From contig JBAXGN010000081.1 in the NCBI GenBank assembly GCA_037139415.1, forward strand, positions 1 to 32,719: a stretch of DNA of 32,719 nucleotides. The letters are read 5' to 3'. This DNA is from Verrucomicrobiota bacterium (GTDB lineage: Bacteria; Verrucomicrobiota; Verrucomicrobiia; Limisphaerales; Fontisphaeraceae). The position numbers and the translations under genes were made by a program. Shown here piece after piece: positions 21,456 to 25,671 of the stretch. The stretch's first letter is position 1; the number at the start of each line of letters is the position of its first letter. The notes under the pieces were generated by a model, which saw only the letters and a program-made list of their open reading frames with translations, had not been told where the DNA came from and made no database searches.

Positions 21456-22883
21456 CAGAGGGTGTTAGGAAATTCGCTGCAAGTTGTTGAGGTTGAATAA
21501 AGAGGATATAAAAAATTGGGGTCTCATGGAATTGCTGGACGCGCGCGTATTTTTAGGGTAGCCAAAAGCCGGATTCGCGACTGCCAATGACGGGAACTGC
21601 CGAACTGCTGAACCTGATCGCGCCGCATGTTCCGGACACCTTTATCAACGACTTGCTGCCACCAGGGTGCGGCCGCGGGCGCCGAACCTTGTTCAGCGCC
21701 GCGCAACTTTGGCGGGTCCATTTGCTAAGCTTGCTGACGCCAGCCCGCACCTTCAATCTGCTGGTCAAACTACTGCCTGAACAGCGCGCCTGGCGACGCT
21801 TTGCACACCTGAGTAATCGCGCTGCGGTGCCCGACGTCTGGATGCTGAACCAGTTTCGGGAGCGGATCGGGGTGGCGGGCTTGCGGCGGATCAACGACGA
21901 ACTCCTGCAGCCCTTATTACCCCGTCACACCCCGCGCCAGTCCTTGGCGCTGATCGACGCGACCGACTTGGCGGCCGCCTGTTCGGGACACAAAAAAAGA
22001 CCACGGGACAATACTCCGCGGCCCATGCGGCGCTCGGTTGTCGGACTTTCAAGTTCGGCCAGAGTCAATTTTTTGTCGGCTACAAGAAGCACACTTTCCG
22101 ACTGTGGCTGCCCGCCTATCAACGGGGCATTCTCTTGGTACCGCTGGTCAGTTGGGTCGCCCCCGCCAATGTTTCCGAAGGCGTTTTTCTCAAGCCCAGC
22201 GTGACGTATGGTGTCCGCCGTTGGCAGTGGCGTCCGGACATGGTTGTCGCTGATATGGGCTATATCGATGCTGCCACCAAACGTCACCTGCGCGAAACGT
22301 GGCAGGTGGCCGTGGTGACACGACTCCGGGAAAACATGCACTTGGTGCCTCCGTTTGAAACCCCGCAGCCCGCCACCTGTCCGCAGGGGCAGTCCTTGAC
22401 CTGGCTGGGCTACGAGGCGGCGGATCAACGCCATTGGTTTGGGGTGACGGAGCCGCAGCCGTTGTGTGACTGGTGTTGGGAAGCGTCCCAATGTGCCAGG
22501 CAATTTGACCACTCGCCAGCAGACCATGAAACGCTCTTGGGCTTGATTCCGATGAACACGCGGGTCAGCCAACGCTTATGGCAACAAGCCCGCCCGTGGA
22601 TTGAACCGACACAGTCGTATGAGAAAAATCAATTGGGGTTGAGCGGGGGCTTTCTCAACAGCCCGCGCCTCACGTGGACCATGGCCTTGCTCGCCGATGC
22701 GGCGGTTTTACTGCGCGCACGGGTGCTGCTGGAGCGGCCTGTGGTTGCCCCGCCCATGCATGAATTATCCCCACGGCAATTGACCTTGGAATTGGGGTTG
22801 GAAATGCAAAAAGAACTGTTCGCCAAAAAATGAAATTTACAGATTTTATGCGGGAAACACTTCGCATTTCCTAACACCCTCTG
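21456..22883 (+). mobile_element. Insertion sequence of about 1.43 kb with 21-bp terminal inverted repeats
   Basis: The ends are CAGAGGGTGTTAGGAAATTC at 21456 onward and, on the other strand, CAGAGGGTGTTAGGAAATGC ending at 22883. They match for 20 of 21 bases with one mismatch. The single gene between them encodes a DDE transposase whose frame is broken. No clean target-site duplication is visible. The flanks share only a rough similarity (TATTTTTCCTGG on the left, GCATTTTTCTGCC on the right). Family assignment is uncertain. The size, ends and protein suggest an IS4-like or IS1182-like element. Confidence 0.85.
21587..22833 (+). pseudogene. DDE transposase with a frameshift at an A7 run
   Basis: The first frame (MTGTAELLNLIAPHVPDTFI ... 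LIDATDLAAACSGHKK) holds the N-terminal DNA-binding region and the first catalytic Asp (D124). The protein continues in the -1 frame from KTTGQYSAAHAALGCRTFKF, through FVGYKKHTFRLWLPAYQRG and VVADMGYIDAATKRHL (second Asp), to a stop at 22831-22833. The switch lies in CACAAAAAAAGACC at about 21990-22003. Restoring the frame gives one protein of about 415 residues with no gaps. The break may be a lost A, a sequencing error or slippage. The original frame continues by chance to 22204. The third acidic residue was not assigned. Confidence 0.75.
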
Positions 22884-22941: not shown

Positions 22942-23283
22942 TCACCGTTCCACCTTCACCGCCACCCAGCGGGCCTCCGGCAAAATGAATTTCTTCACTT
23001 CCACCGTCACGCGTTGCGGGCCGTAATCTTGCAGGATCAGCGTGGCGAGGTCACACGCCAGGGTTTCGATCAGCTTCCAGGAACGATCTTCTCCAAAATG
23101 CAGGAGCCGCCGGGAAACGGCATAGTAATCAATGGTTTTCGTCAGGTCATCCGTGGCGACCGCCGCTGGGAATGGGTGCTCCATGGCCACTGTGAGCAAC
23201 AGGCGTTGTGCTTGGGCGCGCTCGGCTTCCGGCACGCCCACCCGGTAAAAAACCTCCAGTTCATGGATGGTGATGGTGTCCAT
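22942..23283 (-). CDS. folB: Dihydroneopterin aldolase (FolB family), 113 aa
   Basis: The enzyme converts 7,8-dihydroneopterin to 6-hydroxymethyl-dihydropterin in folate synthesis. Family features are all present: start ITIHELEVFYRVGVPEAERA with the conserved Glu near residue 21, LTKTIDYYAVSRRLLHFGED (Asp-Tyr), KLIETLACDLATLIL (substrate-binding Glu-Thr-Leu-Ala) and the final VEVKKF with the catalytic Lys. Length is normal. It lies 7 bp after the HAD-Nudix gene, so it is probably part of the same minus-strand transcript. The 3' end lies only about 58 bp from the IS element. Confidence 0.88.
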   Translation of the reverse strand: MDTITIHELEVFYRVGVPEAERAQAQRLLLTVAMEHPFPAAVATDDLTKTIDYYAVSRRLLHFGEDRSWKLIETLACDLATLILQDYGPQRVTVEVKKFILPEARWVAVKVER

Positions 23284-23290
23284 AGGGGTA

Positions 23291-24373
23291 TCAGGTTGCG
23301 GCGGCAGTGGGTTGCACCGCCTGAAGGAGAATCAGGGTCGGCCGGTTGACCGGCAGCGCCAGCGCTTCGGCCATGGTGACCCATTTGAATTCCTGCGCCT
23401 CGTCGTTCAAAGTCACTGCGGTGTCACCGGCGGCCCGGCAGGTATAATTCAGCAGGAGGAAATGCGCGTCCCGATAAAATTCGGTGGAATGAATGCAATC
23501 CTGCACCAGCACGAACCGCACGTCATCCACGTCCAGATCAGTCTCTTCTTTCAGTTCCCGGCGCAAAGCGGCCTCGGAGGTTTCGCCCCACTTGATCTTG
23601 CCGCCGGGAATGCCCCAGAGGTTGGACCACTTGCGGGTACGAACCATCAAAAAGCGCTGGCCATCTGGGTGATAAATCAAGGCGCCAACAGTGGCGACGG
23701 GATGCAAATCCTGACGTTTTCCCGGGGTAAGGTAGTGGTGCAGTTCAAAGCGGGATTTCTCCAGGATGTCCTGCAATTCCGCCAGGTGTTCCACGATCAG
23801 GTCCGGCTCGGCGTTGCGCAGTTGTTGCAGTGTGTTATAGCCGGTGAGCACGCCGCAGGAATACACGCCGCCGTGCTTGGCGGTTTCGATGTCGTGCTCC
23901 ATGTCGCCGATGAAGAGGGTTTCCTCGGGGTTCAACCGGTTCTCCGCGATGATTTCCCGGATTTTCAGGCGCTTGTCGTACACCTGCACATAGGGTCGCG
24001 CCAGGAAGGCGTCGAATCCCATGCCGCGCGCCTGGCGATGATAGTAGTCGGAGTGAATGGAACTCAGCACAAACGTGTTCAATTTGCGGCTTTTGCAAAA
24101 CTCTAGGAAACTGCGCGCATGGGGCAGTTCCACCACGGTATCCTGCACCTCCTGGAACCGGGTGTGAAACCAGATTTCCAACTGGTCCATGGGCAGGTTG
24201 GGCGTGTAGCGGTCGTAAAATTTATTGAATGGCAGGCAGAATTCCGCGCGGAATTGATCCAGTGACAGCATGGTCAATCCTGCCTGTTGAAACACGTAAT
24301 TGGTGGCGTGCCACGCCGCTGGCAGGTCATCCACCAGCGTCCCAGACCAGTCAAAGATAAGATTGCGAATCAC
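23291..24373 (-). CDS. HAD phosphatase - Nudix hydrolase fusion, 360 aa
   Basis: Residues 1-205 form a HAD-superfamily phosphatase: motif I is NLIFDWSGTLVDD (D8; the usual second Asp is Ser 10), motif II is VLSSIHS, a Lys lies in KRLKIREII, and motif IV is LFIGDMEHDIETAKHGG with Asp 157. Residues 225-360 form a Nudix hydrolase with an almost perfect Nudix box at about 257-279 (GGKIKWGETSEAALRRELKE then ET). Together this suggests a two-step enzyme that hydrolyses a nucleoside diphosphate-linked or pyrophosphate compound and removes the remaining phosphate. Its neighbour FolB suggests the dihydroneopterin triphosphate branch of folate synthesis, but this is inference. The start is GTG at 24373, overlapping the upstream stop (GTGA). 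Confidence 0.85.
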   Translation of the reverse strand: MIRNLIFDWSGTLVDDLPAAWHATNYVFQQAGLTMLSLDQFRAEFCLPFNKFYDRYTPNLPMDQLEIWFHTRFQEVQDTVVELPHARSFLEFCKSRKLNTFVLSSIHSDYYHRQARGMGFDAFLARPYVQVYDKRLKIREIIAENRLNPEETLFIGDMEHDIETAKHGGVYSCGVLTGYNTLQQLRNAEPDLIVEHLAELQDILEKSRFELHHYLTPGKRQDLHPVATVGALIYHPDGQRFLMVRTRKWSNLWGIPGGKIKWGETSEAALRRELKEETDLDVDDVRFVLVQDCIHSTEFYRDAHFLLLNYTCRAAGDTAVTLNDEAQEFKWVTMAEALALPVNRPTLILLQAVQPTAAAT

Positions 24374-25317
24374 GGGACGAGTGTACCATTGGTGGCCGGT
24401 AATGCAACCGGTTGCCGCAGGGTCTTTTCCAGGATGGCATGGTCGTTGGTGGTGCCGCGCACCATCAACAGGCCGCGGGTCTCGTTGAAGTAATAGGAGC
24501 GGGGTGGTGCCAGGTTGATCCCCTGTCTTTGGAAGAATTGGCGTGCGGTGTCATTGGTTCCCATATTGGCGCGCGGGGCAGGGGAGATGCTGTTTGGACG
24601 GGGACCGGTGCTGCCACCGTTGCCCCGCTCGCTGACGTTGCCCGCAATGTTCACCTCGGCATAGGTGGCCATGCCCCCCGAGGCATTACCGCCTTGTCCG
24701 CCGCGATTATCCTGATTTCCCCCGCCAAACGTCGCGGTGCTCACATTTTCCAACCCTTGAACGAAGGTGTTACCATCCACCCGATACACGCGGGTGTACA
24801 AGGTCTCGGTGTCCTGGACCTGCCACGAAAACACCACCCCGTACTCTTCCACCGAATATTTGATGCGTTGGTTGGATACCTTGACCATGATTTCCAGCAC
24901 GTGGAACAGGCTCAGGTCGCTCATGGGCGGTTGGATCTGGATAGGCACATCGTCCAGGTTGGGTGCTTCCCCCGTGGCACCAGCGGGTTGGCGTAGCAGG
25001 TCCACATTATTGCTGAACAGGAAATTGATGCCTTGCTTGTCCGGATCGCGCTTTTTGGATTCTTCCCCCAGCAGTTTGACCACTTCGGCCAGGCGCACTT
25101 TATCGAAGGACACCTCATCCAAATGGATGCGGTTCAGCTTATCGAGGATGACCTGGCGTCCCTTGCTGGTATGCACCAGGGGGCTGCGCGCGTAGGGATT
25201 CGGCTGGGGCAAAGCATCCGCGCCCGCCAGTTCCGTGCCGGGCAACAGGAAGCCGCCCGCCAGCAGGAACAACAGTGGCTGATGCCGGCGAACCAATGGT
25301 TTGACGCTCAGTGGCAT
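24370..25317 (-). CDS. Secreted STN-like protein with Gly/Asn-rich region, 315 aa
   Basis: A signal sequence (MPLSVKPLVRRHQPLLFLLA ... ELAGADA) is followed by a domain at about 55-150 with the STN/secretin N-terminal pattern (IHLDEVSFDKVRLAEVVKLL, NFLFSNNV, IQPPMSDLSLFHVLEIMVKV, IKYSVEEYGVVFS). Then comes a beta segment (TRVYRVDGNTFVQGLENV), a Gly/Asn-rich low-complexity stretch (about 192-240) and a closing SYYFNETRGLLMVRGTTNDH segment that recalls the end of secretin N-domains. It may be a short periplasmic component of a secretion or pilus-like system, but there is no secretin channel domain. The start at 25317 gives the signal peptide. It overlaps the HAD-Nudix gene by 4 bp and is translationally coupled to it. 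Confidence 0.65.
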   Translation of the reverse strand: MPLSVKPLVRRHQPLLFLLAGGFLLPGTELAGADALPQPNPYARSPLVHTSKGRQVILDKLNRIHLDEVSFDKVRLAEVVKLLGEESKKRDPDKQGINFLFSNNVDLLRQPAGATGEAPNLDDVPIQIQPPMSDLSLFHVLEIMVKVSNQRIKYSVEEYGVVFSWQVQDTETLYTRVYRVDGNTFVQGLENVSTATFGGGNQDNRGGQGGNASGGMATYAEVNIAGNVSERGNGGSTGPRPNSISPAPRANMGTNDTARQFFQRQGINLAPPRSYYFNETRGLLMVRGTTNDHAILEKTLRQPVALPATNGTLVP

Positions 25318-25671
25318 GGTGAAACCATAACCGGTGGCGTCCGGTTTTGCAAGCTCAGTTGCGTGAGGTGTTCCATGGGGTGAACACCCCATATCTGGAA
25401 ACCCATTGCGTGGGTTATCCTATTGTTCAAGTTGTCTATTGCATTATGGTTCATGACCTGCAGAAAAGCAAGTGGCGGCGTAACTGGCGTATTGGGCTTG
25501 CCCGCCAAACCTTGATCGAAGTGCTGTATCAGGAGGTGCAGCGATGAAAATGGCTAAGCCTGGCGCAATCACTGCATTACCGCCTTCCCCGTCGGCTCCT
25601 CCCCCGCGTTCGGCTGCTCCGCATTCCGCCTTACGAGCGCCGTGTTCGTCTCATCCATTAATCCACGCCCT
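25318..25671. other. Gap with short overlapping open frames, no gene supported
   Basis: This 354-bp stretch separates divergent genes. It contains a plus-strand frame ending YQEVQR at 25545-25547, and a second short frame that overlaps its stop by ATGA (25544) and is Pro/Ser/Ala-rich. Both may be remnants of a decayed operon that continues with the response-regulator stub at 25672, but neither resembles a family I know. Confidence 0.3.

Follow-up and report, generated by a model that had tools for sequence, protein, structure and literature searches.

The closest described counterpart of the Nudix part of the enzyme analysed here is FolQ, a Nudix enzyme of L. lactis which performs the first step there and is encoded together with folate genes (PMC1971073). 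According to the same source, most genomes lack the pyrophosphatase gene, and reviews attribute removal of the last phosphate in bacterial folate synthesis to a phosphatase that is non-specific or left unspecified; the corresponding pathway figure of a 2016 review places an unnamed phosphatase beside FolB (PMC5041015). FolQ and NudB of L. lactis, plants and E. coli share the Nudix fold and the Nudix box with our domain, which like FolQ of L. lactis is encoded with folate genes, but the known enzymes stand alone, whereas the Nudix domain described here is fused to a HAD domain. A precedent for a HAD phosphatase joined to the enzyme of a neighbouring step is MtlD (7ocs and others), in which it is fused to mannitol-1-phosphate dehydrogenase, although MtlD differs from the HAD-Nudix protein in pathway and fusion partner. 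The core and cap fold of our HAD domain (Z about 21–26) and its motifs I to IV are shared with phosphatases of HAD subfamily IA that resemble phosphoglycolate phosphatase (2ah5, 3mc1, 2hsz), and core, cap and motifs are likewise held in common with a HAD pyrophosphatase of B. thetaiotaomicron (3qu2 and others). It differs from both by an identity of at most 21%, a Ser in motif I, an invariant GDMxHD motif and its linkage to FolB. Searching the open-licence literature, we found no report of a HAD enzyme acting on dihydroneopterin phosphate or triphosphate, and no description of FolB fusions in Verrucomicrobia or, among the titles listed, of the HAD-Nudix fusion itself. The enzyme superfamilies and the pathway are known; the new aspects are the fusion forms, which we did not find described, and a step previously without an assigned enzyme.

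The window, i.e. the whole stretch of DNA that was analysed, comprises 32,719 nucleotides of contig JBAXGN010000081.1 from a Verrucomicrobiota bacterium (GCA_037139415.1). The locus of interest contains the following features:

24370..25392, minus strand: upstream ORF of 340 aa, overlapping the GTG start of the fusion gene by 4 bp (GTGA)
23291..24373, minus strand: HAD-Nudix fusion gene, a single ORF of 360 aa with a GTG start
23849..24361, minus strand: HAD_2 domain, residues 5-175 (Pfam PF13419, E 4e-16), in a structural domain of about residues 1-205
24338..24352, minus strand: HAD motif I, D8-W-S10-G-T12 (DWSGT), with Ser at the position of the second Asp
23699..23758, minus strand: interdomain linker, residues 206-225, the AlphaFold confidence minimum between the domains (about 66-82)
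23351..23698, minus strand: Nudix domain, residues 226-341 (Pfam PF00293, E 5.8e-24)
23534..23602, minus strand: Nudix box, residues 258-280, GX5EX7REXXEE
23284..23290, no strand: intergenic gap of 7 bp from the fusion stop codon (23291-23293) to the folB ATG (23281-23283)
22942..23283, minus strand: folB, dihydroneopterin aldolase, 113 aa (PF02152, E 2.2e-23)

The first-pass annotation had described a HAD phosphatase fused to a Nudix hydrolase, located 7 bp ahead of folB and carrying Ser instead of the second Asp of motif I. All of this was borne out: both Pfam domains lie in one ORF of the minus strand, for which the annotation had given no strand, with the HAD domain at the N-terminus and the Nudix domain at the C-terminus, the sequence and the PF02152 match identify folB as the next gene downstream, and motif I reads DWSGT. 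The AlphaFold model of the fusion protein reached a mean pLDDT of 93.2 and a pTM of 0.80, both domains being predicted confidently and the linker more weakly. Full-length two-domain homologues of 48–69% identity are present in more than 100 other genomes of the source's order, which rules out a frameshift, an assembly artefact or a chance ORF. Because the upstream ORF overlaps the fusion gene by 4 bp and folB follows after 7 bp, the three genes are probably co-transcribed, as judged from their spacing; any part of the upstream product in the function is conjectural. This product showed a weak and partial match to NF042912 (Amuc_1098 family, type IV pilus outer-membrane protein), scoring 61.5 bits where the model's cut-off is 750. 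Beyond folB, the plus strand of the window carries a transposase-like protein, named from its translation, in two overlapping frames (21587-22204 and 22135-22833), which possibly represent a frameshifted insertion sequence.

Comparison of the HAD half with known structures, using a VIA-align list covering residues 1-214 of the fusion, aligned 204 residues with 2ah5 (Z 26.2, rmsd 1.8, 19% identity). The domain shows the hallmarks of subfamily IA of the HAD superfamily, namely the Asp nucleophile, a Ser or Thr in motif II, the Lys of motif III and the acidic pair of motif IV, but it lacks the second motif I Asp at position 10 that characterises classical HAD phosphomonoesterases. Among 198 aligned, non-identical family members, residues D8, T12, K134, D157 and D161 are invariant and position 104 is always Ser or Thr, while position 10, the usual place of the general acid, is occupied by Ser in 194 members and by Cys in the remaining four; three distant outgroup HADs carry Asn there. 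The exchange of Asp for Ser is therefore an old family trait and no flaw of the window copy, and we rejected the assumption of a HAD domain rendered defective by it. Active HAD enzymes with a DxS motif are known, such as human LHPP and HDHD2. The loss of Asp+2 alone would not make the enzyme inactive, yet it is a real ground for caution regarding the substrate: a HAD lacking the general-acid Asp is not well suited to phosphomonoesters whose leaving group is poor, which speaks against the reading that we prefer below, and an anhydride such as pyrophosphate is a possible substrate in view of the DxS motif. The family models gave no substrate name for either domain, as none of the 25 NCBIfam models among the matches listed reached its equivalog cut-off with the HAD or the Nudix part, a result that likewise speaks against this reading. 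Phosphoglycolate phosphatase (54.4 bits against a cut-off of 225, NF009695) and phosphonoacetaldehyde hydrolase (PhnX, phosphonatase; 28.9 bits against an NCBIfam cut-off of 220) were accordingly rejected as labels for the HAD domain.

The C-terminal half clearly belongs to the Nudix superfamily, with a PF00293 match above the cut-off and the GX5EX7REXXEE box kept in all 78 domains of the profile comparison. Its substrate could not be named from similarity, since the best solved relatives were assorted MutT/NUDIX proteins, with NudB in fifth place, and the Foldseek matches included NudI, NUDT12 and NUDT15. The label of NudB, dihydroneopterin triphosphate diphosphatase, was rejected because the domain scored 32.3 bits where the model (NF006961), which may be narrow, requires 103. 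With nine Nudix matches in the source genome, the triphosphate may also be handled by a different protein, and a lack of other folate Nudix genes is not evident there.

The single FolB match obtained in a profile search of the source genome is the one of the window. Its best solved relatives carry dihydroneopterin aldolase names, and it scores above the PF02152 cut-off but stays slightly below that of TIGR00525 (68.9 vs. 72.15 bits); it also has KF where the known solved relatives shown have KP. The neighbouring steps of the pathway are represented as well. FolE2 (GTP cyclohydrolase IB, PF02649) was detected in 127 of the 146 genomes of the order, including the source genome, and HPPK/FolK in all 17 genomes tested, again including the source genome. 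FolE was not found in the source genome by profile search; it occurs in 19 of the 146 genomes, with a score above the cut-off in 18, and is present in 11 of the 19 that lack FolE2.

Across the 146 genomes of the source's order, the HAD family is present in 130 and FolB in 128; both occur together in 124, and 12 contain neither. For 100 of 109 full-length fusions, folB follows directly in the same orientation at a distance of up to 300 nt, measured between the ends of the profile matches and not of the genes. Counted per genome, HAD and folB are adjacent in 115 of the 124 genomes holding both. Conservation of the fusion beside folB in related genomes, suggested as a check by the first-pass annotation, was therefore confirmed, and fusions distant from folate genes are a minority: five of the remaining nine have folB on another contig, three at distances of 309, 389 and 1493 nt, and for one genome none was shown. 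Three of these 100 cases, in genomes from three different families (G032, G067 and the one-contig genome G072), even have the HAD, Nudix and FolB matches within a single reading frame of 516-528 codons, and all three domains of such a triple fusion were confirmed by Pfam in locus L073. A gene for the HAD domain only, located immediately 5' of folB, was found in 11 genomes of the order. The survey contained 20 "HAD only" entries, two of which (G130, G120) are fragments of split or frameshifted fusions and two more (G062, G140) reach contig ends. In the split cases (G130:C31:10697-11800 and G120:C378:8197-9192), the HAD and Nudix matches are found in two pieces at one place, with an identical frame length reported; G130 has a longer stretch between the pieces, and G120 misses part of the query.

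In the phylum-wide survey, the family was found in 59 of 387 genomes. Outside the class, five genomes showed weak or one-domain matches, and all other family members belong to the same class as the source. The 52 genomes from other orders of this class show the following forms: 24 of them encode HAD and FolB as a single polypeptide that lacks Nudix (confirmed by Pfam in locus L298), the HAD gene stands alone next to folB in eight, and a HAD-Nudix gene adjoins folB in ten. Two further genomes have a HAD-Nudix gene with folB at 520 or 757 nt, and in the remaining eight, six of which belong to family f65 besides G323 and G396, folB is absent from the stretch around the HAD gene and FolB is encoded elsewhere. 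Five of the f65 genomes with such a separate HAD gene (loci L290, L291, L293, L294, L295) carry FolB in a frame of 307-327 codons, which starts with a cpYpsA-like SLOG domain according to Pfam for L295 and inspection by eye for L290, L291 and L294, L293 being grouped with them by frame length only. We also scanned 80 loci from named genomes, taken from at least 514 relatives; 75 are titled Verrucomicrobiota and five as other taxa or unspecific MAGs, among the matches listed. Again among the matches listed, folB is adjacent (53) or fused (8) to the HAD gene in 61 of these loci, lies on the opposite strand in one and farther off in two, and is not seen in 16, four of which are cut by a contig end. 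The f65 genomes, two others of the 52 and these 16 listed loci, all without folB beside the HAD gene, count against the reading that we prefer.

To follow the history of the fusions, we used a tree of 115 HAD domains, kept from 201 after similarity reduction and built by a "quick" method, in which some "HAD" labels may represent truncated ORFs at contig ends. The "FolB fused" state requires at least nine changes on this tree and the presence of Nudix 22; counting well-supported branches alone, at least three changes remain for HAD-FolB and at least two for the triple fusion. The Nudix domain was thus gained or lost often while FolB was retained, and fusion to FolB arose repeatedly. Because HAD and FolB are paired time and again without Nudix, it is the HAD and not the Nudix domain that represents the constant partner of FolB. 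No separate close Nudix protein was found in the genomes with HAD-only or HAD-FolB genes, only weak matches turning up in 7 of 25, so some other enzyme must perform the Nudix step there, which weighs against the reading preferred below.

We consider the HAD-Nudix protein to be a putative bifunctional enzyme of the folate pathway, providing the Nudix and the HAD step ahead of FolB, and assign a probability of about two thirds to this reading. GTP would be converted by FolE2 to 7,8-dihydroneopterin triphosphate, from which the Nudix domain would strip pyrophosphate to yield dihydroneopterin monophosphate. The HAD domain would then take off the final phosphate, and FolB, encoded by the neighbouring gene or, in some relatives, in the same chain, would cleave the resulting dihydroneopterin to 6-hydroxymethyl-dihydropterin as the substrate for FolK. 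The strongest clue comes from the HAD-FolB fusions without Nudix, because the monophosphate is the direct precursor of the FolB substrate. The domains, the motifs except D+2, the linkage to FolB and the presence of FolE2 and FolK are observed, and we infer from them the substrates of both domains, their order of action and any channelling. The proposal of the first-pass annotation that the fusion carries out both dephosphorylations thus stands as far as the linkage and fusion to FolB and the FolE2 and FolK genes are concerned; it has to be modified in that the constant partner of FolB is the HAD domain, not the Nudix domain.

Extending this to the class Verrucomicrobiae, it appears rather probable that the lineage has its own dedicated HAD phosphatase, recognisable by DWSGT and GDMxHD, which acts on dihydroneopterin monophosphate and has been repeatedly joined into HAD-Nudix, HAD-FolB and HAD-Nudix-FolB proteins. 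The triple chain would convert dihydroneopterin triphosphate into 6-hydroxymethyl-dihydropterin in three consecutive reactions. The conserved linkage and fusion to FolB expected of such a dedicated phosphatase is found, making the HAD a strong candidate for the ill-defined phosphatase step in the synthesis of vitamin B9. Its recurrent position beside or within FolB makes the monophosphate step testable with one cloned gene. The assignment, if true, would supply a signature for annotating this step in a whole bacterial class. It would also offer the engineering of folate production a naturally occurring chain of three enzymes, and would allow one to test how a HAD without the general-acid Asp acts on a phosphomonoester.

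The main rival is a HAD domain which splits pyrophosphate. It would remove the PPi released in the Nudix step, thereby driving the reaction and easing product inhibition, and the monophosphate would be left to another phosphatase. A DxS motif without a general acid would suit anhydride bonds, the inorganic pyrophosphatase of B. thetaiotaomicron is among the close solved folds (by fold similarity only), and E. coli NudB was solved with PPi, described as feedback inhibition (PMC4790348). In addition, family I pyrophosphatase (PF00719) was absent in 14 of the 17 genomes tested, i.e. the source genome (G000) and 13 others; the three that possess it are precisely those of family f65, in which HAD gene and FolB are separated. 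The f65 pattern, however, represents a single family and possibly a single event, and PF00719 covers family I alone among the pyrophosphatases, which also include membrane and family II enzymes. Moreover, the fusions and pairs of HAD with FolB in the absence of Nudix make FolB the partner, which neither produces nor consumes PPi, and it is hard to see why a pyrophosphatase should be fused to it. We therefore regard pyrophosphate as an unlikely substrate compared with dihydroneopterin monophosphate.

Many members of the Nudix and HAD families are sanitising enzymes, and the protein might accordingly be a house-cleaning enzyme for damaged pterins or nucleotides, trimming side products near FolB without catalysing an obligatory step. 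The absence of the Nudix part from many relatives and the presence of FolB without HAD in 4 of the 146 genomes of the order would agree with such a function, but the recurrent fusion to FolB and the near-universal pairing within the order make it improbable.

We give still less credit to an action of the HAD on another pterin phosphate, such as a 2'- or 3'-phosphate, arising from a cyclic-phosphate route as known for the archaeal MptA and MptB. The cyclohydrolase of these genomes is of the PF02649 type, which also matches in three archaeal control genomes. However, the presence of a Nudix domain on the same polypeptide suits a triphosphate and not a cyclic phosphate. Moreover, where classical FolE scores above the cut-off within the order (18 genomes), 17 genomes possess a full-length fusion and the last one has a fusion matched to residue 299.

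Finally, the adjacency might merely reflect an inherited arrangement of genes devoid of functional significance, and the origin of essentially all cases from one phylum could be quoted in favour of this. Such a reading is very unlikely and was rejected, because FolB gene fusions arose several times and the outer neighbours change while HAD-FolB persists. This flank control comprised 158 loci flanked by 900 nt or more on each side, where folB is next or fused to the HAD gene in 122. The upstream neighbours were spread over 89 clusters, of which the largest contained 19 of 156, and those downstream over 105, with no more than 13 of 155 in any one; although the crude ORF calling may inflate the cluster counts, even the largest clusters remain far below the frequency of folB.

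A Nudix-only relative of 42% identity was detected in another class (G334, L157:724-3310), where it adjoins a Pterin_bind gene of the dihydropteroate-synthase type, in keeping with the folate role proposed above. Another Nudix-like ORF and one resembling QueE, both named from their translations, lie nearby, and the stretch may represent a pterin/deazaguanine cluster.
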